A stretch of 64,000 nt of DNA from Acidimicrobiales bacterium (GTDB taxonomy: Bacteria; Actinomycetota; Acidimicrobiia; Acidimicrobiales; Acidimicrobilacustridaceae): contig JALOLR010000015.1 of the NCBI GenBank assembly GCA_025455885.1, positions 1 to 64,000 on the forward strand, read 5' to 3'. The translations under genes were made by a program, and so were the position numbers. A model generated the notes under the pieces. The model was not told the DNA's origin and searched no databases. It saw only the letters and a program-made list of their open reading frames with translations. Shown here in pieces: positions 12,708 to 28,198 of the stretch (the first letter of the stretch is position 1; each line of letters begins with the position of its first letter).

Positions 12708-13085
12708 ATGAGCGAACCCACCAAGCCCGAGGTGTCCATCCCCGACGAGGCGGCTCCTGTCGAGCTCGTGATCGAGGACCTCGACGTCGGTGACGGCGCC
12801 GAGGCCGTCGCCGGGTCCAACGTGACCGTCCACTACGTCGGCGTGGCCTGGAGCACCGGCCAGCAGTTCGACGCCTCGTGGGACCGCCGGGACACCTTCG
12901 AGTTCCGCCTCGGGGCCGGCCAGGTCATCACCGGGTGGGACGAGGGCGTGCAGGGGATGAAGGTCGGGGGCCGTCGGCGTCTGACGATCCCGCCCCACAA
13001 GGGCTACGGCGACCGCGGCGCCGGCGGGGTGATCCGGGGCGGCGAGACGTTGGTCTTCGTCGTCGACCTCGTCAACGTCGGGTGA
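12708..13085 (+). CDS. FKBP-type peptidyl-prolyl cis-trans isomerase
   Basis: 125 residues, a single cytosolic FKBP domain without signal peptide. TVHYVGVAWSTGQQFDASW, the catalytic-pocket GQVITGWDEGVQGMKVGG, and IPPHKGYGDRGAG are the standard strands and loops; the pocket Trp and Tyr are present. It catalyses X-Pro isomerisation in protein folding. The second of two adjacent start codons was chosen because TAGGTT (12696-12701) ends exactly 6 bases before it. It overlaps the end of mftF by 14 bases. Confidence 0.92.
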   Translation: MSEPTKPEVSIPDEAAPVELVIEDLDVGDGAEAVAGSNVTVHYVGVAWSTGQQFDASWDRRDTFEFRLGAGQVITGWDEGVQGMKVGGRRRLTIPPHKGYGDRGAGGVIRGGETLVFVVDLVNVG

Positions 13086-14532
13086 GCGACGTCCGCCATC
13101 TGGTGTAGCGGCCCGGCCGGGGCCAGCTCGTGAGCTCCGGCACCAGCGGATCGGCGGTGCGCGCCCGGGCCGAGCCCGCCCACACGCCCGCGGCATAGGC
13201 GGCCTGGTCGGCCAGCCGGAACGCCACCCATCGCACCGGGTCGAGCGGTGGTCGCGTCCGTGCCCAGTCCCACAGCGGTGGGCCCACGGCGGCGGCCACG
13301 ACCACCCGGCGGCCCCGGCGTGACGTCACCCCGATGGCGACGGCCAACGGCCACCACGGGCGCACCACCGCGTCGCTCAGCATGCGGGCGGTGGCGAGGT
13401 GGGCCTGCGCGGCGATGCGCGACGCGACGGGGAACGGGTGGTCCAGCGACGCCAGTCCGCGGGCCAACAGGTCCACCGTCGTCGCACCGGCGACCGCGGC
13501 GGCCAGGGGGTGCCCGGTGCCCAGCAGACCCCACACGGCGATGCTCCACGGCGACGCCTCGACGGGGGCGAGGGCGCCGGGGTGGCGAACGGCGAGGGGC
13601 CCGGCCGAGGTTCCGTAGTCGAAGCGCCGGCGCAACCACGCCGCCGGGGCCGTGCGGTGGTGGTGGACGACCTCGACGGTGGGCTCGTAGCGCACCGACC
13701 ACCCGGCCTCGTCGAGCCGCCACACGAGGTCGACGTCCTCCCCGACCGCCATGGTCTCGTCGAAGCCGCCCAGGCCGCGGACCACGTCGGTCCGTGCCAC
13801 GAGCGCCGCGGAGGGCACGTAGGCGACCCGGGTCCGGGCCCGCACCCGTGACGGGAGGGCGCCGAGGTCGAGTGGGGAGCGGTTCGCCTCGTAACGGGCC
13901 AGCGCGGGTGCGCCGGTCGTGTCGGGCGACGTGACCCGCGGAGCGACGGCGGCCACGAGGGGATCGCCGAAGTGGCCGACCAGCCCGTCGAGCCAGGTCG
14001 TGTCGGGGACGCAGTCGGCGTCCACGAACGCCGTCAGCGGGGTCCGCACGTGCCCCAGACCGGTGTTGCGAGCCGCGGAGGGCCCTCCGCAGGTCTCGCG
14101 TCGCACCACTTCGACGGCGCCGCCCGGGCCGGCCAGCGGGGTCTCGCTGGCGTCGTCGACCAGGATCACCCGGGTGTGCCCCGACGCCGCCACGAGCTGC
14201 TCGGCGAGGGTCGGGTGGAGCCGGCCTCGCACCGGGACGACCACCGTGACGTCGTCCCGGTCGAGCCCGCACCGCGGGAGGTCGGGGTGGGCGAGCCCAC
14301 CGTCGAGGAGGCGGCGGGCGAGCTCGGTGGCCGCCCGTCCGGCGGGGACGGGCTCGCCGACGGCCAGGCGGTGCACGAGCGCGGCACCGTGCTCCGTGAG
14401 GCGGGCGAGGCGCAGTGGCGACCCTCCGAGCAGCACCCGGCCGTCCTCGATCACGCGCACCGAGGGGTCGAGGGTGAGGGTGAGGCCCTCGAGGTCGTCG
14501 GCGGGGAGGGGGACGGCCCTCGGGTCCGTCAC
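13072..14532 (-). CDS. mftF: Mycofactocin glycosyltransferase MftF
   Basis: 486 residues. A ~85-residue N-terminal domain is followed by a GT2 domain (about 90-330) with DVTVVVPVRGR, ILVDDASETPL and the DxD-type FVDADCVPD, then ~150 residues rich in hydrophobic stretches that probably touch the membrane. This layout matches MftF, which in mycobacteria adds a beta-1,4-glucose chain to premycofactocin. It overlaps mftE by four bases (ATGA), so the two are translationally coupled. mftA-D lie over 10 kb away. The assignment rests on architecture plus mftE and the rest of the pathway in the window. Confidence 0.88.
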   Translation of the reverse strand: MTDPRAVPLPADDLEGLTLTLDPSVRVIEDGRVLLGGSPLRLARLTEHGAALVHRLAVGEPVPAGRAATELARRLLDGGLAHPDLPRCGLDRDDVTVVVPVRGRLHPTLAEQLVAASGHTRVILVDDASETPLAGPGGAVEVVRRETCGGPSAARNTGLGHVRTPLTAFVDADCVPDTTWLDGLVGHFGDPLVAAVAPRVTSPDTTGAPALARYEANRSPLDLGALPSRVRARTRVAYVPSAALVARTDVVRGLGGFDETMAVGEDVDLVWRLDEAGWSVRYEPTVEVVHHHRTAPAAWLRRRFDYGTSAGPLAVRHPGALAPVEASPWSIAVWGLLGTGHPLAAAVAGATTVDLLARGLASLDHPFPVASRIAAQAHLATARMLSDAVVRPWWPLAVAIGVTSRRGRRVVVAAAVGPPLWDWARTRPPLDPVRWVAFRLADQAAYAAGVWAGSARARTADPLVPELTSWPRPGRYTRWRTSLTRR

Positions 14533-15215
14533 GGGTGTGCGAACCCGTCGACCACGCCGCCGAGGTCGGCCACGAGGCCGTCGAGCAGTCGGGCTCCTTC
14601 TTCGGCGGTGGCCCCGGCGGGGTCGCCGAGGACGCCGTTGGCGGCCACCGAGATCACTCCGCCCCGGCGGAGGTCGTCGATGACGTCGGCCAGTGGCGCG
14701 GTGATCCCCGCCTCGGCCCGGTCGAGGCGCACCGCCGCGGGGTCGACGGCCAGCATGATCGACGTCTCGGTGCGGCCGGCGTGGTGGTCACCCCCGGGCA
14801 CGGACGCGTGCCAGGCCCGCACGGACCGGCCCTCGGCGCGGAGGGTGGCGACCGCCCGGGCCAGCGGCTCGGCGTTGCCGCCGTGCCCGCAGACGACGAC
14901 CACACCGCGGAAGTGGTCGGCCGACCGGCACAGCTCGACGACGACCAGCTCGAGCGCCGCCCGGCCGATGGAGAGGGTGCCCGGGAAGCCGGCGTGCTCG
15001 CCGCTCGATCCCACGGGCAGCGCCGGCGCCACCACCACCCCGGGGCGGGCGCGGGCGACGCGCTCGGCGACGACCGCGGCGATGCGGGTGTCGGTGTCGA
15101 GGGGGAGGTGCGGGCCGTGCTGCTCGGTGCTGCCGAGGGGCACCAGCAGCAGAGGGGCCGGTTCGAGCGCCTCGACGTCGGGCCACGTCAGCCCGGCGAG
15201 GTGGGACGACGTCAT
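14529..15215 (-). CDS. mftE: Mycofactocin precursor peptidase MftE (creatininase family)
   Basis: 228 residues. LGSTEQHGPHLPLDTDT carries the Glu, His and Asp metal ligands of the creatininase fold, and CGHGGNAEPL is the second signature. MftE releases the C-terminal Val-Tyr-derived unit from MftA after MftC action. I chose the ATG giving MTSSHLAGL because it sits just before the conserved core; an upstream start would add 40 low-complexity residues and overlap the acyltransferase gene. A 40-base gap separates it from the acyltransferase upstream. Confidence 0.88.
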   Translation of the reverse strand: MTSSHLAGLTWPDVEALEPAPLLLVPLGSTEQHGPHLPLDTDTRIAAVVAERVARARPGVVVAPALPVGSSGEHAGFPGTLSIGRAALELVVVELCRSADHFRGVVVVCGHGGNAEPLARAVATLRAEGRSVRAWHASVPGGDHHAGRTETSIMLAVDPAAVRLDRAEAGITAPLADVIDDLRRGGVISVAANGVLGDPAGATAEEGARLLDGLVADLGGVVDGFAHP

Positions 15216-15255
15216 CGCGGCCAGCTTCGCGCCCCGGTCCGCGAGGGTGCGTCGA

Positions 15256-17334
15256 TCATCCGGCCGAGGCGGCGGCCTTGGCGCCCAGCACGTCGATGAC
15301 GGTGTTGGCGATGGCGGTGGCGGCGCGTCGCTCACCCGCGGCGGCTTCGGGGCGGACGCATCCCCGGGCCGGGAAGTCGGCGTCGGTGCAGAAGTGCAGG
15401 CCGTCGACGAAGCGGACCGGGACCGTGCCGTCCTCCCGGCACCCGGCCTCGTCGGGTCCGGCGCACGGCATCCGCCACAGGTAGGTGCCGTCCACGTCGC
15501 GCAGGAAGCGTCCCGCGTCGACCAGGGTCACGTTCTGGGGGTCGGCGAGCGCCAGGAGGCCGTAGTGCTCGACCTCGAGGTCGATGCCGGGCTGCAGCTC
15601 CTCCATCCCCCCGGCGGGGATGGACACGCTCGGCACGAGGAAGACGTGGGTGCCCTGGGACGTCCAGGTGGCGACGAGCTCGTCGACCGTGCGGTGCCAG
15701 GGGTCGCCGCAGCGGTCGTCGTAGGCGACGAACAGGAAGAGGATGGCGGCATCGGGGCGGGTCTCGGGATCGGTGGCCTGCTCCCGGATGGCGGCCGCCT
15801 CGTCGCACAGGAGGAAGTCGGGTGGGTTGACCGTGACCATCTCGACGCCCCGACGGCCGAGGATGTCCGTCAGGCACGGCCGTACTTCGCCGGCGAGGGA
15901 GTTCCCGATGTGGGTGACGGTCAGCGTCCCGTCCGGCGACAGCGGTGCGACGTCGGGTTCGGCGACGTCGCAGCGGGGGCTGGTGGCGTAGCTCCCCGTC
16001 GTCGTGACCAGCTGCGCCGAGGGTGCAGGGCCTTCGGGGGCCACGGGGATCGCCGGGTTCGCGATCACCGGTACCAGGAAGCCCAGGCTCAAGGCCGCGA
16101 CGGCGACGGGCGTGACCCACAGTCGCCGTCTCCCGCCCCAGTCGAGCCCCCGGTGGCGGATCGGCTGCTCGACGAGGTGGTAGCTGGCCAGCGAGGCACC
16201 GAGGGTCAGGGCGCTGCGCAGCGCGAAGAGGGCCGGTTCGCCGAGCCCGGTGGACTCGGCGGTCACCCACACGGTGATCGGCCAGTGCCAGAGGTAGACG
16301 CCGTAGGAGATCAGCCCCATCCCCACGAGCGGACGGACACCGAGGACCCGGGCCAGCGGGTTGCGGCCCCCTTGGCCGGCTCCGAGGAGCACCGCCCCGA
16401 AGACGAGGGCGATCACGGCGTAGCCGCCCGCGTACAGCCACTCGTCGGAGGTCTCGACCCGGAACGTGGCCACGAGCAGGGCGACCACCCCGAGCGAGCC
16501 GAGGGCGATGACCGGGATCCTCCACGGACCGGGCACCTGGGGTCGGCCGGCGGTCACGGCGCCGATGGCGGCGCCGACGAGGATCATGAAGACCCTCGTG
16601 TCGGTGCCGTAGTAGAGCCGGTCGAGGTCGGCCCCGTTGCGGTACAGCGCCACCATCCAGCCGGCCGAGGCGACGGCCAGCACCGCGGACACCACCGCCA
16701 GGGCCGGACGCACCGACGGGTGGCCGTGGCGACCTCGCGCCCCGAACCGGCGGACCGCCGCGGCGGTGGCGAGGGCCACCAGCGGCCACAGGACGTAGAA
16801 CTGCTCCTCGATGGCGAGCGACCACATGTGGCGCAGCGGGCTCGGATCGCTCTGGATGAACTGCATCACGTAGGACTGGCCGCTGGCGATGAAGCGCCAG
16901 TTGGCCACGTAGAAGAGCGATGCCAACCCGTCGAGGCCGAGTTGGTGGTTCTCGCTCGGCGTGGCGAAGACGAGCCCGTGCACGGCGACGACGGCGAGGA
17001 CGAGCAGCAGCGCGGGGAAGAGCCGGCGGGCCCGGCGGATCCAGAACCGGCCGAGGGCGATCCCCCCGTTCGAGTCCCACTCCGACACCAGCAGGCTGGT
17101 GATGAGGAAGCCGCTGAGCAGGAAGAACAGGTCGACGCCGAGGAACCCGCCCGGGGTCGCGCCGGGGGTGAAGTGGGACAGCACGACCACCACGACGGCC
17201 AGCCCCCGGAGGCCGTCGAGGGCGCGCAGGTGGGGGAAGCGCGCCGGCGTCGGGGTGGCCGGTTCCGAGGTGGTCGGCGGCTCCGGGTCGGGCGTCGTCG
17301 GATCGCCGGTGAGCGTGGTGGGGGGCGAGCTCAT
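15256..17334 (-). CDS. Acyltransferase-3 membrane protein with C-terminal SGNH domain (OafA-like)
   Basis: 692 residues. After a ~40-residue Pro/Thr-rich head comes the acyltransferase-3 signature LRALDGLRGLAVVVVVLSHF and ten or so TM segments (to about residue 410). A periplasm-side SGNH-hydrolase-like domain follows, with HIGNSLAGE as block I (Asn in place of the usual Asp, Ser kept) and VDGLHFC holding the DxxH block. Proteins of this build O-acylate sugars of envelope polymers or glycolipids. It lies 40 bases upstream of mftE on the same strand. TAACCT at 17346-17351 may be its own promoter, so operon unity with the VWA gene is uncertain. Whether it acts on the mycofactocin glycan is speculation. 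Confidence 0.85.
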   Translation of the reverse strand: MSSPPTTLTGDPTTPDPEPPTTSEPATPTPARFPHLRALDGLRGLAVVVVVLSHFTPGATPGGFLGVDLFFLLSGFLITSLLVSEWDSNGGIALGRFWIRRARRLFPALLLVLAVVAVHGLVFATPSENHQLGLDGLASLFYVANWRFIASGQSYVMQFIQSDPSPLRHMWSLAIEEQFYVLWPLVALATAAAVRRFGARGRHGHPSVRPALAVVSAVLAVASAGWMVALYRNGADLDRLYYGTDTRVFMILVGAAIGAVTAGRPQVPGPWRIPVIALGSLGVVALLVATFRVETSDEWLYAGGYAVIALVFGAVLLGAGQGGRNPLARVLGVRPLVGMGLISYGVYLWHWPITVWVTAESTGLGEPALFALRSALTLGASLASYHLVEQPIRHRGLDWGGRRRLWVTPVAVAALSLGFLVPVIANPAIPVAPEGPAPSAQLVTTTGSYATSPRCDVAEPDVAPLSPDGTLTVTHIGNSLAGEVRPCLTDILGRRGVEMVTVNPPDFLLCDEAAAIREQATDPETRPDAAILFLFVAYDDRCGDPWHRTVDELVATWTSQGTHVFLVPSVSIPAGGMEELQPGIDLEVEHYGLLALADPQNVTLVDAGRFLRDVDGTYLWRMPCAGPDEAGCREDGTVPVRFVDGLHFCTDADFPARGCVRPEAAAGERRAATAIANTVIDVLGAKAAASAG

Positions 17335-17404
17335 GAGGTCGGTCGAGGTTACCGGGGCGACCGGGGCCGGTCCCAGGCGGCACCCGGCCGGCCGGGCGGG
17401 ATCG

Positions 17405-18367
17405 TCAGCCGGCGAAGGCCTCGGTGAGCACCTCGGGGACCGCGCTGGGCCCGTCGAGCGTGTGGCACCGCGCGCCCACCGCCGCGGCCAGGCGCCGGGC
17501 GTCCTCGGCGTCGTCGGTGGGCGCCACCAGCACGAGCTCGTCGAGCGCGGCCGCCGCCGCCGTCGGGTCGTCGCCGAGGGTGGCCCGGGCGTCGGACAGG
17601 ACGACGGCGACGCGCCGCGCCGCGGTCGAGCGGTCGAGCTGCTCCCTGGCGGCGCGCAGCGCGGCGGCGAGGTCGGTCGGGCCGTGGCCGCGCAGGCAGA
17701 ACAGGTCGTCGACGACCTCCTCCACCGGCCGGGCCGATCCTTGTGGCGCCAGCACGACGACCCGCTCGGCGAAGGCCAGGACCGACGTGTCGAGGGGGGA
17801 GCGCCACCTGCACGCCGCGGCGGCCATGGCCGCCGTGGCCAGCCGGGCACCGCCCATCGAGCCCGACCGGTCGACCACGAGGCAGACGGCCAGCTCGGGA
17901 CGTCCCCACTCGCGCGCCCGCAGGTCCGCGAGGTTCGGTGCGCTGCCGGTGGCACGGGCGTCGACCAGCGCGTCGATCGACCGGTCGAGGTCGACGTCGG
18001 CGAGGGCGCGATCGGCGGCCACGTCGCGCAGCCGTCCCACGCCTCGGCGGCGCACCGCGCCGGTGCGACCGAGGTCCACGACGAGGCGACCGGCCAGTCG
18101 GCGGGCCGTGGCCCTCAGGCGCTCGTCGGTGGCGCCGGTCAGCTCGGCGAGCAGGGTCAGGGCGGCGTCGGGGTCGTCGGCGAAGGCGTCGTCGAGGGCG
18201 GCCTCGTCCAGGACGCCCACCTCGGGGGAGACCTCTGCGAAGTGAGGTCGGCGGGCCAGCTCCCGGCGGGACGTCGTGCGCCGCCGGGCCTCGTCGACGG
18301 CCTCGCGGCCCGCAGCGCCCTCGTCGACCCGGTCGTCCCCCGTGCCACCCCCCGCGTGGGGGGTCAG
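17405..18367 (-). CDS. VWA-domain protein (CoxE/MoxR-partner type)
   Basis: About 320 residues. The N-terminal half is Arg/Ala-rich and helical; the C-terminal half is a von Willebrand A domain with the metal-adhesion site LVVDRSGSMGG near residue 165, HGPTDLAAAL (the conserved Thr) and VVLSDAR. It has no TM segment. MoxR-VWA pairs act as chaperone systems that insert metals or remodel enzymes. The start is unclear: no ATG lies near the 5' end, and I give a CTG overlapping the MoxR stop as the tightest coupling; an in-frame GTG at 18487 is the alternative. A perfect 14-bp GC palindrome (17383-17396) follows the stop. Confidence 0.75.
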   Translation of the reverse strand: MTPHAGGGTGDDRVDEGAAGREAVDEARRRTTSRRELARRPHFAEVSPEVGVLDEAALDDAFADDPDAALTLLAELTGATDERLRATARRLAGRLVVDLGRTGAVRRRGVGRLRDVAADRALADVDLDRSIDALVDARATGSAPNLADLRAREWGRPELAVCLVVDRSGSMGGARLATAAMAAAACRWRSPLDTSVLAFAERVVVLAPQGSARPVEEVVDDLFCLRGHGPTDLAAALRAAREQLDRSTAARRVAVVLSDARATLGDDPTAAAAALDELVLVAPTDDAEDARRLAAAVGARCHTLDGPSAVPEVLTEAFAG

Positions 18368-19326
18368 GCTTTTCCCGCGTCGGCGCGGCCGCTCCCGGTG
18401 TCCGGGCGGGTCGTGCCGCCCCCGTCGGGGTCGGCGGCCGACGCCGCCCACAGCTCGCGGACCAGGTCCTCGGCGCTGCGGCCGCACCCCTCCCGCATGC
18501 GGATCCGACCCGAGAGCGCCGCCAGGGCGGCGTCGAGGCCGGTGGCGTCGTCGTCGGAGCCGGTGCTCCGGAGGGCGGCGAGGCGATCGGCCACCGTCAC
18601 GAGGTCGATGGCCCCCCGCACCGAGGAACCGACCCGCACGTCGGGGTGGTCACGTGTCGCCCGCACCACGCGAACCGCCCGTCGCACCAGCGGCTCGACC
18701 GCCGTGGGATCGGCCCGGCGGACGATCTCGCGTTCCGCGTCCTCGTCCTGGTAGCCCATGGCCACCCGGCACACCCGGTCGTAGACCGCCGAGGAGATGC
18801 GGGCGGTGCCGATGGCGTCGAAGGGGTTCATGGCGGCCACCACCCGGAACCCCGGCGCCGCCTCGACCCGGCCGAGCCGCGGGACGTGGAGCTCGCCCTC
18901 GCTCATGGCGGTGATGACGACGTTCAGCGTCTCCTCGGGGACCCGGTTGATCTCCTCGAGGTAGAGCAGGGCCCCGGTGCGCATCGCGTCGATCAGCGGG
19001 CCGTCGAGGAACACCTCGGGCCGGTAGCCCTCGGCCAGCACCCGGGCCGGATCGAAGGATCCGGTCAGGCGGGCCGGGGTCAGCTCGGCGTTGCCCTCGA
19101 CGAACACGAGGTCGAGGCCGGCCGCGCCGGCCAGCGCCCTCAACAGGGTGGACTTGCCGGTGCCGGGGGGACCCTCGAGGAGGACGTGGCGTTCGGCGGC
19201 GAGGGCGGCGAGCACGACCTCGATCTCGGGGCGTCGCCCGACCATGGTGGCGTCGAGGTCGTCGACGACGGCCTTCGTGAGGGCGATGCCGGTCGGGGCG
19301 GCCGGCGGCTCCTCCGGCGCGCTCAC
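18364..19326 (-). CDS. MoxR-family AAA+ ATPase
   Basis: 320 residues. Walker A is EGPPGTGKSTLLRAL near residue 55, Walker B is LLYLEEINR (Glu where most MoxR proteins have Asp), and sensor 1 is AAMNPFD near 165. MoxR ATPases form hexamers that work with VWA proteins to mature other enzymes. The GTG start overlaps the SDR stop (GTGA), and the stop abuts the VWA gene, so SDR, MoxR and VWA are tightly coupled. Confidence 0.87.
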   Translation of the reverse strand: MSAPEEPPAAPTGIALTKAVVDDLDATMVGRRPEIEVVLAALAAERHVLLEGPPGTGKSTLLRALAGAAGLDLVFVEGNAELTPARLTGSFDPARVLAEGYRPEVFLDGPLIDAMRTGALLYLEEINRVPEETLNVVITAMSEGELHVPRLGRVEAAPGFRVVAAMNPFDAIGTARISSAVYDRVCRVAMGYQDEDAEREIVRRADPTAVEPLVRRAVRVVRATRDHPDVRVGSSVRGAIDLVTVADRLAALRSTGSDDDATGLDAALAALSGRIRMREGCGRSAEDLVRELWAASAADPDGGGTTRPDTGSGRADAGKA

Positions 19327-20141
19327 GGGCGGAACCCGCCGTCGACGTCGAGCACGGCGCCCGTGAGCGCTCCCGGGGCGTCGGTGCACAACCAGGCGAT
19401 GGTGGCGGCGATCTCGTCGGGGTCGATGGCCCGCTGGATGCGGGTCTGGCGAGCGAACGACCCGGGCTCGGACAGCCCGTAGATAACCGCGCTGGCGTGG
19501 AGCATCTCGGTCATCGTCGACCCCGGGGCCACGGCGTTGGCCGTCACGCCGGTGGGGCCCAACTCGGCGGCGAGGGCCTTCACCAGCCCGGCCACGCCGT
19601 GCTTCGACGCGCTGTAGGCGGCCAGGCTGGGCAGGCCGTGGTGGGCGGCGCTCGAGGCCACGGCCACGAAGCGACCCCGGCGCGGCTCCGGGCGGGCCAG
19701 CAGGTGCGGCACACCGGCCCGGGCCAGGTGGAACACACCGGTGAGGTTCACGTCGATCATGGCGTGCCACGCGGCGTCGTCGGTCTCCCAGGTCGGCGGC
19801 CCGCCCGCCACCGCGCCGGCGGCGGCGACGAGCGCGTCGATGCGGCCGTGGGTCTCCGCGACGGCGTCGACGACGGCGCCGAGGGCGGCGGCGTCGCGGA
19901 CGTCGACGGCATGGGCTTCGGCGGCGGGCCCGCACCTCTGCGCGGCGGCGTCGAGCTCGGCCCGCGTGGCCGGTCGGTAGGGCCCGGGAAGGTCGGTGGC
20001 GCCGGGCTCCGCGGAGCCGGCGGCCAGATCGAGGAGGGCGACGCGCCAGCCGGCGGCCACGAGGCGCGAGCCGGTGGCCGCGCCCATCCCCCGCGCCCCG
20101 CCGGTGATGACGGCCACCGGCGCCGAATCGGGACCGGTCAC
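19323..20141 (-). CDS. Mycofactocin-type SDR oxidoreductase
   Basis: 272 residues. Cofactor motif is ITGGARGMGAATG, and the active site has VASSAAHHG then YSASK. Between strand 2 (VALLDLA) and the DVRD motif there are about 45 residues instead of the usual ~25, including PGPYRPATRAELDAA. An insert here marks mycofactocin-dependent SDRs, which hold NAD(H) tightly and pass electrons to mycofactocin. Substrate unknown, presumably an alcohol. GTG was chosen because CACCTT lies 6 bases upstream and the Rossmann strand starts ~10 residues later. It heads the SDR-MoxR-VWA unit. Confidence 0.82.
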   Translation of the reverse strand: MTGPDSAPVAVITGGARGMGAATGSRLVAAGWRVALLDLAAGSAEPGATDLPGPYRPATRAELDAAAQRCGPAAEAHAVDVRDAAALGAVVDAVAETHGRIDALVAAAGAVAGGPPTWETDDAAWHAMIDVNLTGVFHLARAGVPHLLARPEPRRGRFVAVASSAAHHGLPSLAAYSASKHGVAGLVKALAAELGPTGVTANAVAPGSTMTEMLHASAVIYGLSEPGSFARQTRIQRAIDPDEIAATIAWLCTDAPGALTGAVLDVDGGFRP

Positions 20142-20272: not shown

Positions 20273-21679
20273 GTGGCCGCCGCACCGAGCAACGAGCCCA
20301 CCCGGCGCCGGCCGACCACGACGTCGAATTTCGGGGTGTCCCGGCGTGAGAGCCACGACGCCTCGGGCTTCTACGGACGCTTCCGGCCACCCGAGCTGTC
20401 GACGGACAGCGCGGTGGCTCCTCCGCAGCCCGTCGACGAGCCCTTCGTGTGCGGCGACGCTCGCCGCATGACCTCGGTCGGCGACGCCAGCGTGGCCCTC
20501 GTCGTGACCTCGCCTCCCTATTTTGCCGGCAAACAGTATGAGGAGGAGCTCGGCCGCGACGGCGTGCCGGCGTCCTACATCGAGTACCTGGCGATGCTGC
20601 GTGACGTGTTCGCCGAGTGCGTGCGGGTGCTCGAGCCGGGTGGCCGGATCGCCGTCAACGTGGCCAACCTGGGGCGCAAGCCGTACCGGTCGCTGTCCGC
20701 CGACGTGATCGGACTCCTCCAGGACGACCTCGGTCTGTTGCTGCGGGGCGAGGTGATCTGGCAGAAGGCCGAGGGGGCCAGCGGCTCGTGTGCGTGGGGG
20801 TCGTTCCGCAGCGCGGCGAACCCGGTCCTGCGCGATGTCACCGAGCGGGTCGTGATCGCCAGCAAGGGCCGCTTCGACCGGGCCCTCTCGACGAAGCAGC
20901 GGGCGGCGGCGGGGCTCCCCAGCGAGAGCACGGTGGGCACCGACGACTTCATGGCCCTCACCCTCGACGTGTGGTCGGTCCCCACCGAGAGCGCGCGCCG
21001 CGTCGGCCATCCCGCCCCGTTCCCGGTCGAGCTGCCCGAGCGGCTCATCCGGCTCTACACGTTCGCGGACGACCTGGTCCTCGACCCGTTCATGGGGAGC
21101 GGGTCCACCCTCGTCGCGGCCGCGACCACCGGCCGCCGCTACGTGGGCTACGACCTCGATCCGGCCTATGTCGCGTTGGCGCGTGAGCGGGTGGCGGCGT
21201 CGGTCGGCGGCGACGGCGGTCACCCGGACCGGTTCGGCGCGGCCCCCGCCGGCGGCGAGGGGCGTTCGTCGCGGGCCTGGGCCGAGGACGTCCTCGTCGA
21301 TGCAGGCTTCGCGGTCGTCGGCCGAGATCGACGTCTCCGGGGGGCCGGCGTCTCGGCGGACCTCGTGGTCCGCGGCCACGACGGGACGGAGTGGCCGGTG
21401 CTCGTCGCCGGTCCGGCGTCCGCCCACCGCCCGGGCCTCTCCCGCCTGTCCACGGTGCTCGAGGTGCTCGGTCGGGCGACGGTGGTGCACGCGTCGACCG
21501 GCGGCCGGGTGCTCGTGGCGACCCCGGACGCCCCCCGACCCGGCACGGACGGCGATCGAGCGATGCGCACCGCCGCGGCGTCGGTCGGCGTCGATCTCGT
21601 GGTCCTGGGCGATCCCGGCACGCCGCGGGCGCTCGCGCGACGTTGTCAGGGGTCCCACGGGGCCACGCCGGGGGTCTGA
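20273..21679 (+). CDS. Orphan beta-class DNA methyltransferase with C-terminal extension
   Basis: 468 residues. The catalytic motif TSPPYFAGKQYE (near 78-90) comes before the SAM motif DPFMGSGSTL (near 280), the beta-class order. SPPY at the active site is usual for N4-cytosine and some N6-adenine enzymes. After residue ~320 there is a ~145-residue extension with SADLVVRGHDGTEWPVLVAG, which looks like a core beta-sheet of a small nuclease-like or recognition domain; it is not part of the MTase fold. No restriction endonuclease or Vsr gene is beside it, so it is probably a solitary methylase. GTG starts 6 bases after TACGGT (20261-20266). Confidence 0.85.
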   Translation: MAAAPSNEPTRRRPTTTSNFGVSRRESHDASGFYGRFRPPELSTDSAVAPPQPVDEPFVCGDARRMTSVGDASVALVVTSPPYFAGKQYEEELGRDGVPASYIEYLAMLRDVFAECVRVLEPGGRIAVNVANLGRKPYRSLSADVIGLLQDDLGLLLRGEVIWQKAEGASGSCAWGSFRSAANPVLRDVTERVVIASKGRFDRALSTKQRAAAGLPSESTVGTDDFMALTLDVWSVPTESARRVGHPAPFPVELPERLIRLYTFADDLVLDPFMGSGSTLVAAATTGRRYVGYDLDPAYVALARERVAASVGGDGGHPDRFGAAPAGGEGRSSRAWAEDVLVDAGFAVVGRDRRLRGAGVSADLVVRGHDGTEWPVLVAGPASAHRPGLSRLSTVLEVLGRATVVHASTGGRVLVATPDAPRPGTDGDRAMRTAAASVGVDLVVLGDPGTPRALARRCQGSHGATPGV

Positions 21680-22844: not shown

Positions 22845-23954
22845 ATGACCGAACTGCAGTCGCGAGCGGCCTTCGACGAGCTCCTCGAGACGTTGCGTGC
22901 CGCGGCCGACACCTGGGTGGTGCCCGGCCCGGCCATGAGCGACGACGACGTCGCGGAGGGCTTCCGGAACCTCACCCACATCCTCCAGAGCGCCCTCTAC
23001 TCCCATCAGGAGTTCGACCCGGAGCGCCCCGTCTTCCACCGCATCGTCTCGCCCACCCGCAGCTTCACCGGCGACAACAGCGATGCCGTGTACTACGAGA
23101 CGCCGGTCGCGCCCGGGCTCGAGTACGTCGTCCGGGGCAACCTCGCCGGCGCCGTCTACACCTCGTTCACGATGGAGGCCGGTGCCGCCGACGGCGCGTA
23201 CGCGACGCACAACTCCGGCGTGCTGAACGACAACGACATCGACGTCGACGCCGAGGGCAACTACGAGATCCGCCTCGGCGGCCAGCCGGCCGACCGCAAC
23301 TGGATGGACATCGGCGAGAACGGGGGCCGGATCACCACCCGCCACTACTTCGAGACGGTCGAGTCCGCCTCGGCGTCGCAGACGCTGCACGTCCCCATCA
23401 GCATCGAGGTCGTCGACCCGCCCCCGCCCCCGCCCCGGTGGAACGACGAGCGGGTGGCCGCCGCTCTGCGCCGGGTGAACCGCCACGTGTACGACAAGAC
23501 CGTCGGTCAGCCGGCGCGTGACGACGTGGGCTCGATCCCCTTCGTGTCGACGGTGCCCAACGAGTTCCCCAAGCCGGTGGTGCCCGGCGACATGGCGTTC
23601 GCGGCGGCCGACGCCGCGTACTCGATGGCCCCGTACCTGATCGGTCCGGACGAGGCTCTCGTGATCACCGGCCGGTGGCCGGCGTGTCGTTTCGCCAACG
23701 TGTGCCTCTGGAACCGGTGGTCGCAGATGTACGACTACGTCAACCGTCAGGTGTCGTTGAACCGGGTGCAGACCCACCTCGAACCCGATGGGTCGTTCCG
23801 GTTGGTCCTGGCGCACGAGGATCCGGGCCTGCCGAACTGGATCGACACCGAGGGACGGGCGCTGGGCACTGTCTTCTTCCGGTTCTTCCTCCCGGAGGAG
23901 GACGTCGAGACCCCGGTGGCGACCGTCGTGAAGTTCGCCGAGCTCACGCCCTGA
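22845..23954 (+). CDS. DUF1214-like protein, copy 1
   Basis: 369 residues. The C-terminal ~120 residues (DEALVITGRWPACRFANVCL, NRVQTHLEPDGSFRLVLAH, PNWIDTEG) match the DUF1214 region found in DUF1254/DUF1214 proteins. The N-terminal part has strands such as YYETPVAPGLEYVVRGN. There is no signal peptide. Biochemical role unknown; relatives occur in lipid, steroid and xenobiotic gene clusters. It converges with a second copy, overlapping by 11 bases. GGGGGAACG precedes the ATG. Confidence 0.75.
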   Translation: MTELQSRAAFDELLETLRAAADTWVVPGPAMSDDDVAEGFRNLTHILQSALYSHQEFDPERPVFHRIVSPTRSFTGDNSDAVYYETPVAPGLEYVVRGNLAGAVYTSFTMEAGAADGAYATHNSGVLNDNDIDVDAEGNYEIRLGGQPADRNWMDIGENGGRITTRHYFETVESASASQTLHVPISIEVVDPPPPPPRWNDERVAAALRRVNRHVYDKTVGQPARDDVGSIPFVSTVPNEFPKPVVPGDMAFAAADAAYSMAPYLIGPDEALVITGRWPACRFANVCLWNRWSQMYDYVNRQVSLNRVQTHLEPDGSFRLVLAHEDPGLPNWIDTEGRALGTVFFRFFLPEEDVETPVATVVKFAELTP

Positions 23955-25104
23955 CGGCGTCGAACGCCACGACCTCGGTGGTGAGGTCGGCGATCGGCTC
24001 GGTGGGCAGCAGGAACCGCCAGAACATCGTGCCGTGGGGCAGGCCCCGGGTGTCGAGCCAGTTGGGCACGCCGGGGTCGCGGTGGGCGAGGACCATGCGG
24101 AACGAGCCGTCGTCCTCGTGGACCGTCTGCACCCGGTTGAGCGACACCGCCCGCCGGTCGTAGGGCAGCGTCTGCATGTGGTTGTTGAACAGCACGACGT
24201 TGGCGAACCGGCAGCGGGGGAACCGCCCGGCGATCACCAGCGCCTCGTCCGGACCGAGCTCCCAGCGGGCGCTGCGGTACACGTTGTCGGCGGCGGCATA
24301 GCCGATGCCGAGGTTCCCGTCGTCCGGGGGCGGGTTGGTGAACGCGTTGGGCTCCGACGAGACCCACGGGATGGCGCCGGGCGGCATGGGGTGGTGGCCC
24401 CAGTCGACCGTGACCGAGCGCAGGAAGGTGACGACCCGACGGATGTCGGCGGCGGTGGCCTCGTCGTCGGGGACGGGCGGAGGTCCGGGGTCGTCGAGGG
24501 GCACGATCGACAGCGGGACCTCGAGGGTGGGGTCGAGTGCCGCGCAGCGGGCCCACTCGAAGTAGTGGCGGGTGGTGATCGACCCGGCGTCGGGGGCCAG
24601 GGGCAGCCAGTTGCGGCCGTGGTCGCCGGGACCGTCGGCCTCGGGTCCGACGAGGAGCTCGAAGCTGCCGTCGGCGGCCACGTCGAACTGGTCGTCGTTG
24701 AGCGTGTGCCCGAGGCGCTGCGACATGGCGCCACCGGCGGTGCCCATCTCGACGGTGAACGACGTGTAGCAGGCGTTGGCGGTGTTGCCCCGCAGCCGGT
24801 ACGACCGGGTGGGGTCGATCACCGTCCCGTAGTAGACGGTGTCGGGGTTGTCGCCGAGGAGCTTCAGGCTGGGCGTGAACCAGCGGTGGAACCACGGGCG
24901 GGCGGGGTCGGCCTCGAGCCAGAACTGCAGGCCGTGGTGCAGGGCGTGCATGGCGAACCGGCGGTACGACGCCCGGTCCTGGTCGGTGGTGAAGTCCCAT
25001 CGGGGGTGGTCGGCGTCGGCGTTCACCGCCGCCACCAGCTCTGCCAACTCGGCCATCGCCGCCGACGCGGCGCTGCTCGCGTTCGTGTCCGTCCCGACGT
25101 CCAT
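23944..25104 (-). CDS. DUF1214-like protein, copy 2
   Basis: 386 residues, clearly homologous to the facing gene along its whole length: TVYYGTVIDPTRSYRLRGN parallels the YYETPV region, and DEALVIAGRFPRCRFANVVL, VSLNRVQTVHEDDGSFRMVL and VPNWLDTRG parallel the C-terminal half. Function unknown. It is divergent from mftD across 208 bases, so it may respond to the same signals, but no shared operator is proven. Confidence 0.75.
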   Translation of the reverse strand: MDVGTDTNASSAASAAMAELAELVAAVNADADHPRWDFTTDQDRASYRRFAMHALHHGLQFWLEADPARPWFHRWFTPSLKLLGDNPDTVYYGTVIDPTRSYRLRGNTANACYTSFTVEMGTAGGAMSQRLGHTLNDDQFDVAADGSFELLVGPEADGPGDHGRNWLPLAPDAGSITTRHYFEWARCAALDPTLEVPLSIVPLDDPGPPPVPDDEATAADIRRVVTFLRSVTVDWGHHPMPPGAIPWVSSEPNAFTNPPPDDGNLGIGYAAADNVYRSARWELGPDEALVIAGRFPRCRFANVVLFNNHMQTLPYDRRAVSLNRVQTVHEDDGSFRMVLAHRDPGVPNWLDTRGLPHGTMFWRFLLPTEPIADLTTEVVAFDAVRA

Positions 25105-25312: not shown

Positions 25313-26488
25313 ATGGCTGGTGCGTGGTTCGAGACGGTGGCCGTGGCGCAGAAGCGCGCCAAGCGACGCCTGCCGTCGTCGGTCTACGGCGCCATCATCG
25401 GCGGCGCCGAGAAGGGCGTGTCGCTCGAGGCCAACCTCGGCTCCTTCGACCGCTTGGGCTTCGCTCCCCACGTCGCCGGCCTCCAGCCCGAGCGCTCGAT
25501 GGGAACCCGGGTCATGGGCCTCGACATCTCGATGCCGGTCGTCATCTCGCCGACCGGGGTCCAGGCCGTGCACCCGGACGGCGAGGTGGCGGTGGCCCGC
25601 GCCGCCGCCAACCGGGGCATCCCGATGGGGCTCAGCTCCTTCGCCTCCAAGTCCATGGAGGAGGTGGCGGCGGTCAACGACCAGCTGCTCTTCCAGATGT
25701 ACTGGTCCGGGGGCCGCGAGGTCATGGTCCAGCGCCTCGAACGGGCGAAGGCGGCCGGCGCCAAGGGCATCATCCTCACCCTCGACTGGACCTTCTCGAA
25801 CGGCCGTGACTGGGGCAGCCCGTTCATCCCGGAGAAGATCGATCTCAGGACCGCCCTGAAGCTCGCCCCCCAGGCGCTGTCCCGCCCGGCGTGGTTCGCC
25901 GCCTACCTGCGCCAGGGCCACATCCCCGACCTCTCGACCCCCAACATGGCCAAGCCCGGCGAGGCGCCGCCCGCCTTCTTCGGGGCCTACTACGAGTGGA
26001 TGCAGATGCCGCCCCCCAGCTGGGACGACGTGGCGTGGCTCCGCTCCCAGTGGGAGGGCCCGTTCATGGTCAAGGGCGTCTGCCGCGTCGACGACGCCAA
26101 GCGGGTGCGCGACGCCGGGTGCACCGCCCTGTCCGTGTCCAACCACGGGGGCAACAATCTCGACGGCACGCCGTCGCCGATCCGGGTGCTGCCGTCGATC
26201 GTCGACGCTGTCGGCGACGAGATCGAGGTCGTGCTCGACGGCGGCGTGCGGCGCGGCTCCGACGTGGTCAAGGCGGTCGCCTTCGGCGCGAAGGCGGTGA
26301 TGATCGGGCGGGCCTACCTGTGGGGGCTCGCCGTCAACGGCCAGGTCGGGGTCGAGAACGTGCTCGACATCCTGCGCGGGGGGATCGACGCCTGCCTGCT
26401 CGGCCTCGGCAAGGCCAGCATCGCCGAGCTGTCGGCCGACGACATCGTGGTGCCGAAGGACTTCTTCCTCACCCTCGGCGACAAGTAG
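25313..26488 (+). CDS. mftD: Mycofactocin oxidase MftD (FMN alpha-hydroxyacid oxidase family)
   Basis: 391 residues, an FMN TIM barrel of the lactate oxidase family. Visible blocks: MPVVISPTGVQAVHPDGEVA, PMGLSSFASKSMEEVA, the catalytic SNHGGNNLDGTPSP with the base His, and the phosphate loop VLDGGVRRGSDVVKA plus MIGRAYLWGLA. MftD oxidatively deaminates the cyclised 3-amino-5-hydroxyphenyl-dimethylpyrrolidinone intermediate to the redox-active premycofactocin. Its tail runs toward mftC from the opposite strand, unlike the usual collinear mft order. Confidence 0.92.
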   Translation: MAGAWFETVAVAQKRAKRRLPSSVYGAIIGGAEKGVSLEANLGSFDRLGFAPHVAGLQPERSMGTRVMGLDISMPVVISPTGVQAVHPDGEVAVARAAANRGIPMGLSSFASKSMEEVAAVNDQLLFQMYWSGGREVMVQRLERAKAAGAKGIILTLDWTFSNGRDWGSPFIPEKIDLRTALKLAPQALSRPAWFAAYLRQGHIPDLSTPNMAKPGEAPPAFFGAYYEWMQMPPPSWDDVAWLRSQWEGPFMVKGVCRVDDAKRVRDAGCTALSVSNHGGNNLDGTPSPIRVLPSIVDAVGDEIEVVLDGGVRRGSDVVKAVAFGAKAVMIGRAYLWGLAVNGQVGVENVLDILRGGIDACLLGLGKASIAELSADDIVVPKDFFLTLGDK

Positions 26489-26545: not shown

Positions 26546-27679
26546 TCAGAGCACCGTGACGGGGATGCGGCGACGGCCGACGCCGAGGGGCTTGGAGTGG
26601 TCGGCGCTCACCGTGGGGCGGTCGACGGGGCCCCGCGCGGCCAGCTCGGCGAGGGCCTCCTCGCCGTGGCCGAAGACGCACTCGGGGTCGGGGGCGTCGA
26701 GGGGGAGGCCGGTGAAGAACTTGGCGGCCATGCAGCCGCCGCCGCAGGCGTCGTAGCTGCCGCACGAGCCGCACGCGCCGGGCGAGGAGGGCTCGCGCAG
26801 GGACGTGAACAGATCGCTCGTGCGCCACACGGCGGCGAAGCCGCCCTCGTCGCGCACGTTCCCGGCCTTGAACTCGTCGTGGAGCACGAACGGGCAGGCG
26901 TAGACGTCGCCGACGGGGTCGATGAGGCAGACCACCCGACCGGCACCGCACAGGTTGAGCCCGGGGAGGGGCTCGCCCAGCGCGGAGAGGTGGAAGAACG
27001 AGTCGCCGGTGAGGACGTGGGGCCGGGCCAACAGCCAGTGGTACAACTCGCGCTGCTGTCGGGACGTCGGGTGCAGGTCGTGCCAGGTGTCGATGCCGCG
27101 ACCCGAGGGCCGGAACCGGGTGAGGCGCAGCTCGGCGCCGTACTCGGCGGCGAGGGCCTCGTACGCGTCGACCTGCTCCACGTTGGCCCGCGTCATCACG
27201 ACGCTGAGCTTGAACGACCCGAAGTCGGCGTCGCGGAGGTGGTCCATGGCCCGGCGCACCCGGGCGTGGGTGCCCTCGCCCCGGATGACGTCGTTGGTCG
27301 CCTCGTCGATGCCGTCGAGGGAGATCTGGATGTCGACGTAGTCGAGGGCGGCGAGGCGGCGTGCGTTCTCGGCGGTGATGCGGCCCCCGTTGGTCGAGAA
27401 CTTCACCCCGACCCCCCGCTCGACGCAGTACTCGACGATCTCGAAGAAGTCGGGACGCAGCATCGGCTCGCCGCCGCCGATGTTGACGTAGAAGACCTGC
27501 ATCTCGGCGAGCTGGTCGACGATGGCGCGCATCTCGGCGGTGGTCAGCTCGTTCGGATCGCGCCGTCCCGAGCTCGACAGGCAGTGGACGCAGGCGAGGT
27601 CGCAGGCGTAGGTCCACTCCCAGGTGAGGCAGATGGGGGCGTTGAGGCCGAGCGTGAGCTCGTCGGTGAGCGCGGTCAT
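26546..27679 (-). CDS. mftC: Mycofactocin radical SAM maturase MftC
   Basis: 377 residues. The radical SAM cluster motif is CDLACVHC (CxxxCxxC) near residues 27-34; GGGEPMLRPDF is the SAM-binding GGE region. The C-terminal SPASM domain has the Cys series in LCGAGRVVCL, YACPF, CGSCGSYDACGGGC and CVFGHG for auxiliary Fe-S clusters. MftC decarboxylates the C-terminal Tyr of MftA and crosslinks it to the preceding Val. Its ATG overlaps the mftB stop (ATGA), which fixes the start. Confidence 0.95.
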   Translation of the reverse strand: MTALTDELTLGLNAPICLTWEWTYACDLACVHCLSSSGRRDPNELTTAEMRAIVDQLAEMQVFYVNIGGGEPMLRPDFFEIVEYCVERGVGVKFSTNGGRITAENARRLAALDYVDIQISLDGIDEATNDVIRGEGTHARVRRAMDHLRDADFGSFKLSVVMTRANVEQVDAYEALAAEYGAELRLTRFRPSGRGIDTWHDLHPTSRQQRELYHWLLARPHVLTGDSFFHLSALGEPLPGLNLCGAGRVVCLIDPVGDVYACPFVLHDEFKAGNVRDEGGFAAVWRTSDLFTSLREPSSPGACGSCGSYDACGGGCMAAKFFTGLPLDAPDPECVFGHGEEALAELAARGPVDRPTVSADHSKPLGVGRRRIPVTVL

Positions 27680-27990
27680 GCGCGGTCCTCGGGTTCGGGG
27701 GGCGTGGGCACGATGAAGTCGCCGGCGGCGAGCGAGGTGAGGGCCCTCTCGAACGAGGGCCACCGACGGTCCTCGAGGCCGGCGGCGGCGAACGCCGTCC
27801 GGGCGTCGGGCGCCTCCCCCAGGCCCTCGACGACCGCGACGAGGTCGGGGGAGCGCAGGAACGTGAGGCGCCGGTTGCCGTAGTGGTACGCGAGCGCCCC
27901 GAACGGTTCGGGGCGCAGCGCCACGCGGTCGTGCAGGCGCCACGGCCGGCCGGCGTCGAAGCCGGTCGTGTCAGGGGTGGTCGTGGTCAT
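27676..27990 (-). CDS. mftB: Mycofactocin peptide chaperone MftB (RRE protein)
   Basis: 104 residues, PqqD-like size and fold signature: WRLHDRVALRPEPFGALAYHYG followed by LTFLRSPDLVAVVEGL. MftB binds the MftA leader and delivers it to MftC. It overlaps mftC by four bases and starts 28 bases after the mftA stop, so mftA-mftB-mftC is one transcript. Confidence 0.92.
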   Translation of the reverse strand: MTTTTPDTTGFDAGRPWRLHDRVALRPEPFGALAYHYGNRRLTFLRSPDLVAVVEGLGEAPDARTAFAAAGLEDRRWPSFERALTSLAAGDFIVPTPPEPEDRA

Positions 27991-28018: not shown

Positions 28019-28147
28019 TCAGTAGACGCCGCACATGCCGTCGATGGAGATCTCCTCGACCAACAGCTCGTCGTCGGTGGCCTCCGCGTCGGTCTCGGCG
28101 GCCGGCGTGGTCTCCGGGGCCTCGGTGGCCTCCAGGGTCTGGTCCAT
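28019..28147 (-). CDS. mftA: Mycofactocin precursor peptide MftA
   Basis: 42-residue peptide. The acidic Thr/Glu/Ala leader (MDQTLEATEAPETT...) is followed by LLVEEISIDGMCGVY, whose last eight residues IDGMCGVY are the hallmark of MftA. The final Val-Tyr pair becomes mycofactocin. GAGGGGAA lies 6 bases upstream of the ATG. It is easy to miss at this length. The next genes on the strand are mftB and mftC. Confidence 0.96.
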   Translation of the reverse strand: MDQTLEATEAPETTPAAETDAEATDDELLVEEISIDGMCGVY

Positions 28148-28181
28148 GGTGTTCCCCTCGTGGGCGGTGGCGACGGAGCTC

Positions 28182-28198
28182 ATCCTACCGATGGTGCC
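28182..28198 (-). promoter_or_regulatory. Putative mftA promoter element
   Basis: On the minus strand GGCACC (28193-28198), five bases, then TAGGAT (28182-28187) precede mftA with a leader of about 28 bases. The same GGCACC-N5-TAGGRT order occurs upstream of mftD. The second arm of the mftD inverted repeat is not present here. Confidence 0.45.

Follow-up and report, generated by a model that had tools for sequence, protein, structure and literature searches.

What a MoxR-type AAA+ ATPase and a von Willebrand factor A (VWA) protein do in a mycofactocin locus, and how the two are joined, are the questions raised by the stretch of Acidimicrobiales DNA analyzed here (the window: 64,000 nucleotides (nt), contig JALOLR010000015.1 of assembly GCA_025455885.1, positions 1 to 64,000). 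A short-chain dehydrogenase/reductase (SDR) gene, the MoxR gene and the VWA reading frame follow one another on its minus strand. We consider it likely that this segment is a member of a conserved actinobacterial cassette, comprised of a mycofactocin-coupled dehydrogenase, a NorQ/CbbQ-type MoxR and a NorD/CoxE-like VWA domain, in which MoxR and VWA are joined by -1 recoding and would serve as an ATP-driven activase or maturase of dehydrogenases with buried NAD. The features that carry this reading are the following.

19323..20141, minus strand: mycofactocin-coupled SDR (TIGR04504/NF040491), the likely client enzyme, called from hidden Markov model (HMM) scores and its insert relative to 3PGX
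18364..19326, minus strand: MoxR AAA+ ATPase, short zero-frame product of 320 amino acids (AAA_5 match, NorQ/CbbQ-like predicted fold)
18370..18376, minus strand: slippery heptamer G GGA AAA in the zero frame, predicted -1 frameshift site
18364..18366, minus strand: TGA stop of the zero-frame MoxR product, starting 10 nt past the first base of the heptamer
18348..18363, minus strand: GC hairpin CCCCCC-ACGC-GGGGGG, predicted stimulator, starting 6 nt past the heptamer
17405..18370, minus strand: VWA (CoxE/NorD-like) -1-frame extension with the metal ion-dependent adhesion site (MIDAS) DRSGS; predicted MoxR-VWA fusion of ~640 amino acids (319 + 321)

The SDR exceeds the cut-offs of two models that both carry the name "mycofactocin-coupled SDR" (TIGR04504, 317.0 bits against 250; NF040491, 301.6 bits against 265). 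The extra insert of mycofactocin-dependent enzymes, which the first-pass annotation of this region had attributed to it, is seen near the NAD site in the alignment with 3PGX, and its stop codon does overlap the GTG start of MoxR, by four bases (GTGA, 19326-19323). At its 3' end the MoxR gene reads GAC GCG GGA AAA GCC TGA. The VWA part is open in the -1 frame, and none of the usual start codons occurs close to where its conserved region begins; a GTG ~85 nt before the MoxR stop is the nearest one upstream. The two coding regions had been described as abutting genes; they are adjacent, but the VWA part appears to be a -1-frame extension of MoxR rather than a mere neighbor, and the frameshift signal that joins them had been overlooked.

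The comparison used genome samples drawn from larger groups at the level of the class (198 genomes), the order (248, including the window's own genome) and the phylum (296). MoxR orthologs in the order were defined by at least 50% identity and E < 1e-79; identities are bimodal, the other listed matches reaching 40% at most. The 69 order loci fetched around MoxR matches were combined with phylum loci and with named loci from the listed matches in a collection of 84,980 species into a set of at least 130 distinct loci, window included, from which five loci had been removed (the central 300 nt of their MoxR matched another locus) and in which near-identical loci remain. A VWA reading frame follows MoxR in 125 loci and the contig ends at that place in the other five, so the pair is complete in 125 of 125 cases where the contig continues. 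A single-sequence VWA search that found matches in 2 of the 198 class genomes had suggested a private pair; this was a failure of sensitivity, since VWA adjoins MoxR in 65 of the 69 fetched loci. The gene order, which might have proved private to one strain, is thus found in 130 distinct loci from 21 families of the order and further actinobacterial families.

Among the 125 loci with VWA, a MoxR stop precedes the VWA part in 104, and for 103 of these the frame of VWA is -1. The MoxR frame stays open past the VWA start in the remaining 21, comprising 18 true same-frame fusions and three loci (L139, L187, L196) with VWA in other frames. A zero-frame NNNAAAN heptamer occurs within 120 nt before the MoxR stop in 90 of the 103 loci (86 GGGAAAA, 3 CCCAAAA and 1 AAAAAAA, the last in the distant non-member L190, without which the count is 89 of 102), and all 90, L190 included, lie within the stretch that is open in both frames. 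GGGAAAA itself is present at the MoxR end in 86 of the 102 loci, 86 times in the zero frame versus once in another frame. The control counts are far lower: 148,640 codon positions of MoxR, VWA, alcohol dehydrogenase (ADH), SDR and mft genes from the same loci contain no zero-frame GGGAAAA and seven in any frame, and the terminal 120 nt of 358 further genes from these loci contain none in the zero frame and one in another frame. In 45 of the 103 loci the VWA frame has no upstream ATG, GTG or TTG at all.

A perfect stem of at least 5 bp starts 5-7 nt past the heptamer in 75 of the 89 loci, with the start distance peaking at 6 nt, versus a mean of 9.0 (maximum 16) for dinucleotide shuffles and of 5.7 (maximum 14) for random MoxR positions. 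The mean folding energy of 26-nt segments is -11.7 kcal/mol at 10 nt from the heptamer start, compared with -4.3 to -7.4 at the other offsets tried. Taken alone, the hairpin of the window is not striking (-15.3 kcal/mol, z -1.70, 15 of 200 shuffles as good; for a 47-nt stretch z -1.34, 21 of 200), and the strength of the signal therefore lies in its conservation across loci. The stem is nearly invariant among 33 sequences picked for pairing (the 5-bp hairpin subset), on which formal covariation is uninformative, and shuffle counts were used instead. Within the window's genome the 17-base site is unique up to one mismatch, and no GGGAAAA was found in the stretches examined around its two other MoxR genes. 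Transcriptional slippage requires longer runs and, with only four A in the site, was considered improbable. Altogether these alignments demonstrate, at the level of sequence, a conserved putative -1 recoding signal between MoxR and VWA, made of a heptamer, a spacer of ~6 nt, a GC hairpin and an often startless extension; the locus probably makes both MoxR and a MoxR-VWA fusion.

Two variants of the junction were observed. L123, L146 and L197 have GGGGGAA instead of GGGAAAA and keep a hairpin-like inverted repeat just past the stop, which may represent a weaker or altered slip site. The distant MoxR-VWA pair L190 (genome G445) has VWA in the -1 frame and its zero-frame AAAAAAA 16 nt before the MoxR stop; from this case, recoding may be wider among MoxR-VWA pairs.

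In eight of the 18 same-frame fusions the linker retains an in-frame GGGAAAA; a ribosome slipping to -1 there would reach a stop after three codons in six cases and after seven and nine codons in the other two. The layout would thereby be reversed, the long form being read in the zero frame and the short form coming from slipping, by analogy with E. coli dnaX. The same site and stop are present in L139, in which VWA is spread over other frames, and three Pseudonocardiaceae loci have T TTT TTC with a hairpin ~6 nt on. Five junction layouts mapped on a MoxR tree of 121 rows require 11 changes versus a shuffled mean of 31.1; this tree leaves out L187, L190, L096 (early stop in the MoxR frame) and L098, and in it L139 is labeled as a fusion with the site and L196 as a fusion without it, neither being counted as a same-frame fusion elsewhere. 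Since the site survives a swap of the frames of the long and short products, we argue that selection preserves the making of both.

What the pair acts on is suggested by its neighbors. When the reading frames of the 69 order loci were clustered, a further conserved family emerged as the third. It occurs in 52 loci, its median distance upstream of MoxR is 1.1 kb, and 50 of its 55 copies share the MoxR strand; all five representatives tested pass TIGR03989, the N,N-dimethyl-4-nitrosoaniline (NDMA)-dependent alcohol dehydrogenase. With HMMs built in this analysis, the gene directly upstream of MoxR on the same strand was called in the 130 loci as a TIGR03989-type ADH in 91, an SDR in 15, mftE in 2, nothing recognized in 19 and a contig end in 3, so that an ADH or SDR is immediately upstream in 106. 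A Pfam scan of 10 of the 21 mftE or unrecognized loci found, among others, other SDRs (L125, L140), an aldo-keto reductase (L098) and an acyltransferase (L133). The reductase of L098 lies directly upstream of a divergent MoxR with VWA nearby, and is possibly a further client class.

Nine SDRs from SDR-bearing cassettes were tested, of which six pass TIGR03971 and three TIGR04504/NF040491. SDR-linked MoxRs fall in five separate places of a 128-row MoxR tree (two fragments of 200 amino acids or less left out); the SDR label changes five times, the same number at both ends of the 5-95% bootstrap range, although some of these changes could be losses. SDR-only cassettes with TIGR03971 SDRs branch elsewhere on this tree, in family f101 (L191, L195) and in Pseudonocardia (L154). 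The f101 genomes G454 and G621 each contain an ADH-MoxR-VWA cassette plus a separate SDR-SDR-MoxR-MoxR-VWA cassette. In the latter (L191, L195) the second MoxR is fused to VWA, and the short and long forms of the ATPase, i.e. the same two products, come from two genes. We rejected the idea that MoxR-linked ADHs form one clade, as the label changes 27 times on a 149-row ADH tree (two ADH fragments of 300 amino acids or less left out).

The pair also follows mycofactocin across genomes. In the order sample, protein searches found the MoxR ortholog in 69 of 248 genomes and mftC as well as the TIGR03989 ADH in 99 each; MoxR and mftC co-occur in 66 genomes, with 3 having MoxR only, 33 mftC only and 146 neither, and the corresponding counts for MoxR and the ADH are 67, 2, 32 and 147. 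These are raw counts, uncorrected for shared ancestry, and the MoxR carriers span 21 families. The first-pass annotation had named an equal frequency of MoxR without mft genes as evidence that would speak against a link; mftC is present in 66 of the 69 MoxR genomes versus 33 of the 179 others. Two of the three MoxR genomes without mftC (G343 and G275) hold mftF above the cut-off, and G267 alone has neither, while in G035, from the window's own family, MoxR, mftF, mftC and the ADH are missing together. In the phylum sample MoxR is matched in 24 genomes and mftC in 36, with 21 having both. Of the three phylum matches without mftC, G434 and G445 were judged to be outside the MoxR family because of their long branches and low scores, and G563 is fragmentary (89% completeness, 580 contigs). 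The genome comparison thus demonstrates, for these samples, both the conservation of the predicted cassette and its tie to mycofactocin genomes.

Two side observations concern this distribution. In L226, L227 and L228, from mft genomes without MoxR-VWA, the ADH is followed directly by mftF, which looks like the outcome of losing an intervening pair. In L105, a contig recorded as a "Bifidobacterium breve" metagenome-assembled genome carries an mft locus at the same match position as contig C5 of G403, a genome of the window's family; the name is probably wrong.

The predicted folds point to an activating ATPase. AlphaFold2 models of MoxR and VWA have a mean confidence (predicted local distance difference test, pLDDT) of 90.7 and 87.3, respectively. 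Foldseek matches the MoxR model best to NorQ (E 1.7e-19) and then to CbbQ (1.8e-18), with a TM-score by query of about 0.7, and the four best matches of the VWA model are chain G of NorQ-NorD entries, which from the entry titles would be the NorD VWA domain. By sequence profile alone, midasin ranks above NorQ for MoxR. MoxR matches AAA_5 with 90.7 bits (AAA_5/AAA_3 type); in its alignment the Walker A motif GPPGTGK is invariant and EEINR, N and R are conserved. VWA passes VWA_CoxE (PF05762) with 38.1 bits against a gathering cut-off of 26.4, and the MIDAS residues (DxSxS) D155, S157 and S159 are invariant in 19 sequences. MoxR is accordingly classified as a NorQ/CbbQ-type AAA+ protein, for which ATP hydrolysis and a hexamer with the VWA partner would be expected. 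Two other identities were rejected. GvpN (TIGR02640) scores 71.4 bits against a cut-off of 266.8, and the MoxR-vWA-beta-propeller ternary system lacks its adjacent beta-propeller gene, the window neighbors being the SDR, an acyltransferase, mftE and mftF; bpMoxR (PF20030) matches with 30.9 bits against 27, its best match extending over 128 residues.

NorQ/NorD and CbbQ/CbbO use ATP to remodel the active site of their client. According to excerpts of PMC5264612, NAD in TIGR03971 SDRs is buried under an insertion and did not exchange in nuclear magnetic resonance tests, and the authors speculate about a "specialized adaptor machinery" for the redox exchange of these enzymes. From the likeness to the two NorQ- and CbbQ-type systems and from the buried NAD we infer an activase or maturase that acts on the NAD site. 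Ribosomes would slip back at G GGA AAA, and one gene would make MoxR (320 amino acids) and MoxR-VWA (~640 amino acids), which may assemble into mixed hexamers; the VWA arm would recognize the dehydrogenase, and ATP hydrolysis would remodel its cofactor site, by loading or re-opening a buried non-exchangeable NAD(H) and making the enzyme usable by mycofactocin. We put forward only tentatively the full version, a dedicated ATP-driven activase for mycofactocin nicotinoproteins in which mixed MoxR/MoxR-VWA hexamers, with a ratio set by -1 frameshifting, would open the buried NAD site in dehydrogenases as unrelated as the zinc ADH and the SDR, so that the locked-in NAD(H) can be loaded, exchanged or repaired. 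Such an activase is possibly the adaptor machinery of PMC5264612, as far as the excerpts go.

The junction could alternatively be one of two ordinary translationally coupled genes, in which VWA would start at a rare CTG overlapping the TGA, or else at a GTG within the MoxR gene, and the motif would act as a coupling signal. This would suit the CTGA seen at many junctions, the 58 of 103 loci with some ATG, GTG or TTG upstream in the VWA frame, and the five in which a start codon overlaps the MoxR stop (ATGA in L081 and L177; GTGA in L080, L092 and L102); the heptamer is also present in four of these five. However, the stop is TAG or TAA in 25 of 89 loci, which excludes CTGA, and the heptamer is found anywhere from 10 to 106 nt before the stop, yet always in the zero frame and in the doubly open stretch. 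Plain fusions exist, and coupling cannot explain why eight fusions keep the site where a -1 slip gives an early stop, which makes this account very unlikely. The idea that errors of sequencing or assembly produced the frame break deserves hardly any credence: many of the genomes are metagenome-assembled, and L139 and L196 show VWA in inconsistent frames, but the -1 frame is common to 103 loci and a heptamer to 89 of 102, with isolates among them (Geodermatophilus DSM 45219, G. sabuli, Modestobacter VKM Ac-2985, Blastococcus).

As to function, the pair might insert zinc into the TIGR03989 ADH, SDR neighbors being bystanders left after ADH loss. The ADH is the commonest neighbor (91 of 130), SDR-ADH-MoxR-VWA arrays exist (L119), and NorQ/NorD and CoxD/CoxE serve metal sites; on the other side, the SDR-only cassettes L191, L195 and L154 branch elsewhere on the MoxR tree, and SDRs are not known to use a catalytic metal. 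As a common role, metal insertion is less likely because the clients belong to two unrelated folds, zinc-containing ADH of the medium-chain dehydrogenase/reductase type and SDR, which share the mycofactocin link and not a metal, and we regard zinc insertion as unlikely. Even less probable is that the pair matures mycofactocin itself, e.g. through MftC, MftE or MftF, instead of the dehydrogenases. MoxR-VWA is often beside mftF or mftABC and MoxR presence tracks mftC, but the pair is missing from a third of the mftC genomes in the order (33 of 99), and in G454 and G621 both cassettes, the one with the ADH and the one with the SDR, are remote from mftC. No mft gene is present in the available stretch of 54 of the 130 loci, many stretches being short; when only the 67 loci flanked by 8 kb or more on each side are considered, mft genes are missing from 23, and an ADH or SDR is still the immediate upstream gene in 20 of them. 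The proposal of the first-pass annotation, in which the chaperone pair would serve specifically either a mycofactocin-dependent dehydrogenase or the assembly of mycofactocin, is supported in this sense: by gene context the dehydrogenase is the better supported target, while the chaperone function is what we infer.

Several observations weigh against the activase reading as well. The upstream and overlapping start codons described above count here, as do the mftC genomes without MoxR, which comprise, besides the 33 of the order, 15 of 36 in the phylum sample and include all eight mftC genomes of family f113; since families with mftC but without MoxR exist, mycofactocin enzymes can work without it. 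No ADH or SDR is directly upstream in 24 of the 130 loci (three being contig ends). The SDR-MoxR adjacency in the window's family may stem from ADH loss, because arrays of the form mftE-SDR-ADH-MoxR-VWA-mftF exist in the order (L119, L082). The window's genome has two TIGR03989 ADHs far off, with no such MoxR within about 3.5 kb, and because they lie elsewhere the pair could act on them in trans. The structural match of VWA to NorD is modest (TM-score 0.43-0.45 by query). Finally, ten same-frame fusions, mostly from f101 genomes, lack the site, and the two-product output is therefore not universal; 9 of the 121 tree rows have neither a recognized slippery site nor a fusion.

The remainder of the window holds a full mycofactocin locus, with all of mftA, B, C, D, E and F present.

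15256..17334 (approximate), minus strand: OafA-like acyltransferase (Acyl_transf_3), Pfam match
14529..15335, minus strand: mftE (TIGR03964, 278.6 bits)
13072..14532, minus strand: mftF (TIGR03965, 442.6 bits)
25313..26488, plus strand: mftD, profile match
26546..27679, minus strand: mftC, profile match
27676..27990, minus strand: mftB, read from the translation; HMM built from relatives and the window locus
28019..28183, minus strand: mftA precursor peptide ending IDGMCGVY, read from the translation; same type of HMM

The one-strand run of SDR, MoxR, VWA, acyltransferase, mftE and mftF listed by the first-pass annotation is present, its members passing curated models; the range given for it, 14529-20141, contains all of these genes except mftF, which lies outside apart from a 4-base overlap. 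On the 5' side of the acyltransferase the sequence likewise shows the TAACCT and the gap of 70 bases that contains a GC palindrome. Neither the sister genome G083 nor five f1/g2 genomes showed this acyltransferase in the interval from VWA to mftE. Given its absence there from the f1 relatives compared, it appears to be a private insertion outside the conserved block; it might decorate the mycofactocin glycan. Another Acyl_transf_3 gene is located between the ADH and MoxR in L133. Between mftD and the SDR there is a homologous convergent gene pair (22845-23954, plus strand; 23944-25104, minus strand), each gene matching the other; NCBIfam gave no match at E 1e-15, no family was assigned, and some f1 relatives have matches as well. 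An N6_N4 DNA methylase gene (20273-21679, plus strand) is divergent from the SDR and has homologs near MoxR in just 2 of the 69 loci.

In the literature, GGGAAAA has been reported as a -1 site of actinobacterial phages, in mycobacteriophage TM4 (excerpts of PMC4626039) and in the tail chaperones of phage Bush (excerpts of PMC11749239), and a word search of the E. coli heptamer survey PMC4066793 did not find it. The main text of the 2013 frame-transition survey (PMC3711429) contains none of MoxR, VWA and Willebrand, its magnesium chelatase cluster being the nearest precedent, and the first 300,000 characters of the 2016 review PMC5009743 contain neither MoxR nor mycofactocin. Word searches found neither "ATPase" nor "chaperone" in the main text of Haft 2011 (PMC3023750) and each word once, on other matters, in the MftG paper (PMC11778925). 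Open-literature searches, judged on partial texts, gave a prophage study only for mycofactocin with MoxR and apparently other subjects only for ribosomal frameshifting with MoxR; frameshifting with mycofactocin gave nothing, and no description of a recoded MoxR-VWA was recognized in titles and abstract starts. Subscription papers and supplements were outside this scope, and an earlier prediction in a supplementary table is possible.

MoxR-VWA appears to add a component to the mycofactocin system for which we found no earlier description, and also a frameshifted family of genes whose conserved -1 signal is very clear (86 of 102 loci versus 0 control occurrences). Automatic annotation is likely to mis-call the VWA half as truncated or startless. 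The pattern points to a so far undescribed activation step for mycofactocin-dependent alcohol-oxidizing enzymes in many actinobacteria; it bears on how enzymes with locked-in NAD obtain and keep a working cofactor, and makes this question testable. If true, the activase reading would amount to a Rubisco-activase-like service for non-exchangeable cofactors.

Several known systems resemble the cassette in part. NorQ-NorD and CbbQ-CbbO, whose structures are the best matches of the MoxR model (NorQ, CbbQ) and of the VWA model (NorQ-NorD chain G), have the same order of an ATPase gene and then a VWA gene beside the client enzyme. They differ in that the compared structures are separate chains, whereas here VWA appears to be fused by recoding, and in that the neighbors here are mycofactocin-coupled ADHs and SDRs. 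In the chlD-type chelatases the longer product carries a VWA domain. One gene of these magnesium or cobalt chelatases gives a short and a longer AAA+ subunit by -1 recoding with a potential downstream RNA structure, and fused and two-frame forms coexist, as seen in excerpts of PMC3711429, PMC9227772 and PMC5009743. The slip site is A_AAA_AAR there and GGGAAAA here, MoxR belongs to another AAA+ family and is of the NorQ/CbbQ type, and the client would be a nicotinoprotein dehydrogenase, no tetrapyrrole chelatase being involved. E. coli dnaX (tau/gamma) likewise makes an AAA+ protein in two lengths, and according to excerpts of PMC3711429 its layout, a long zero-frame product and a short one produced by a -1 slip and a quick stop, is matched by the reversed lineages, although the protein, the site and the downstream domain are different. 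Finally, the mycofactocin system of Haft 2011 (PMC3023750) is represented by mftA-F and the coupled SDR in the window, and by the TIGR03989 ADH in its genome and in related cassettes, with MoxR-VWA as an additional component.

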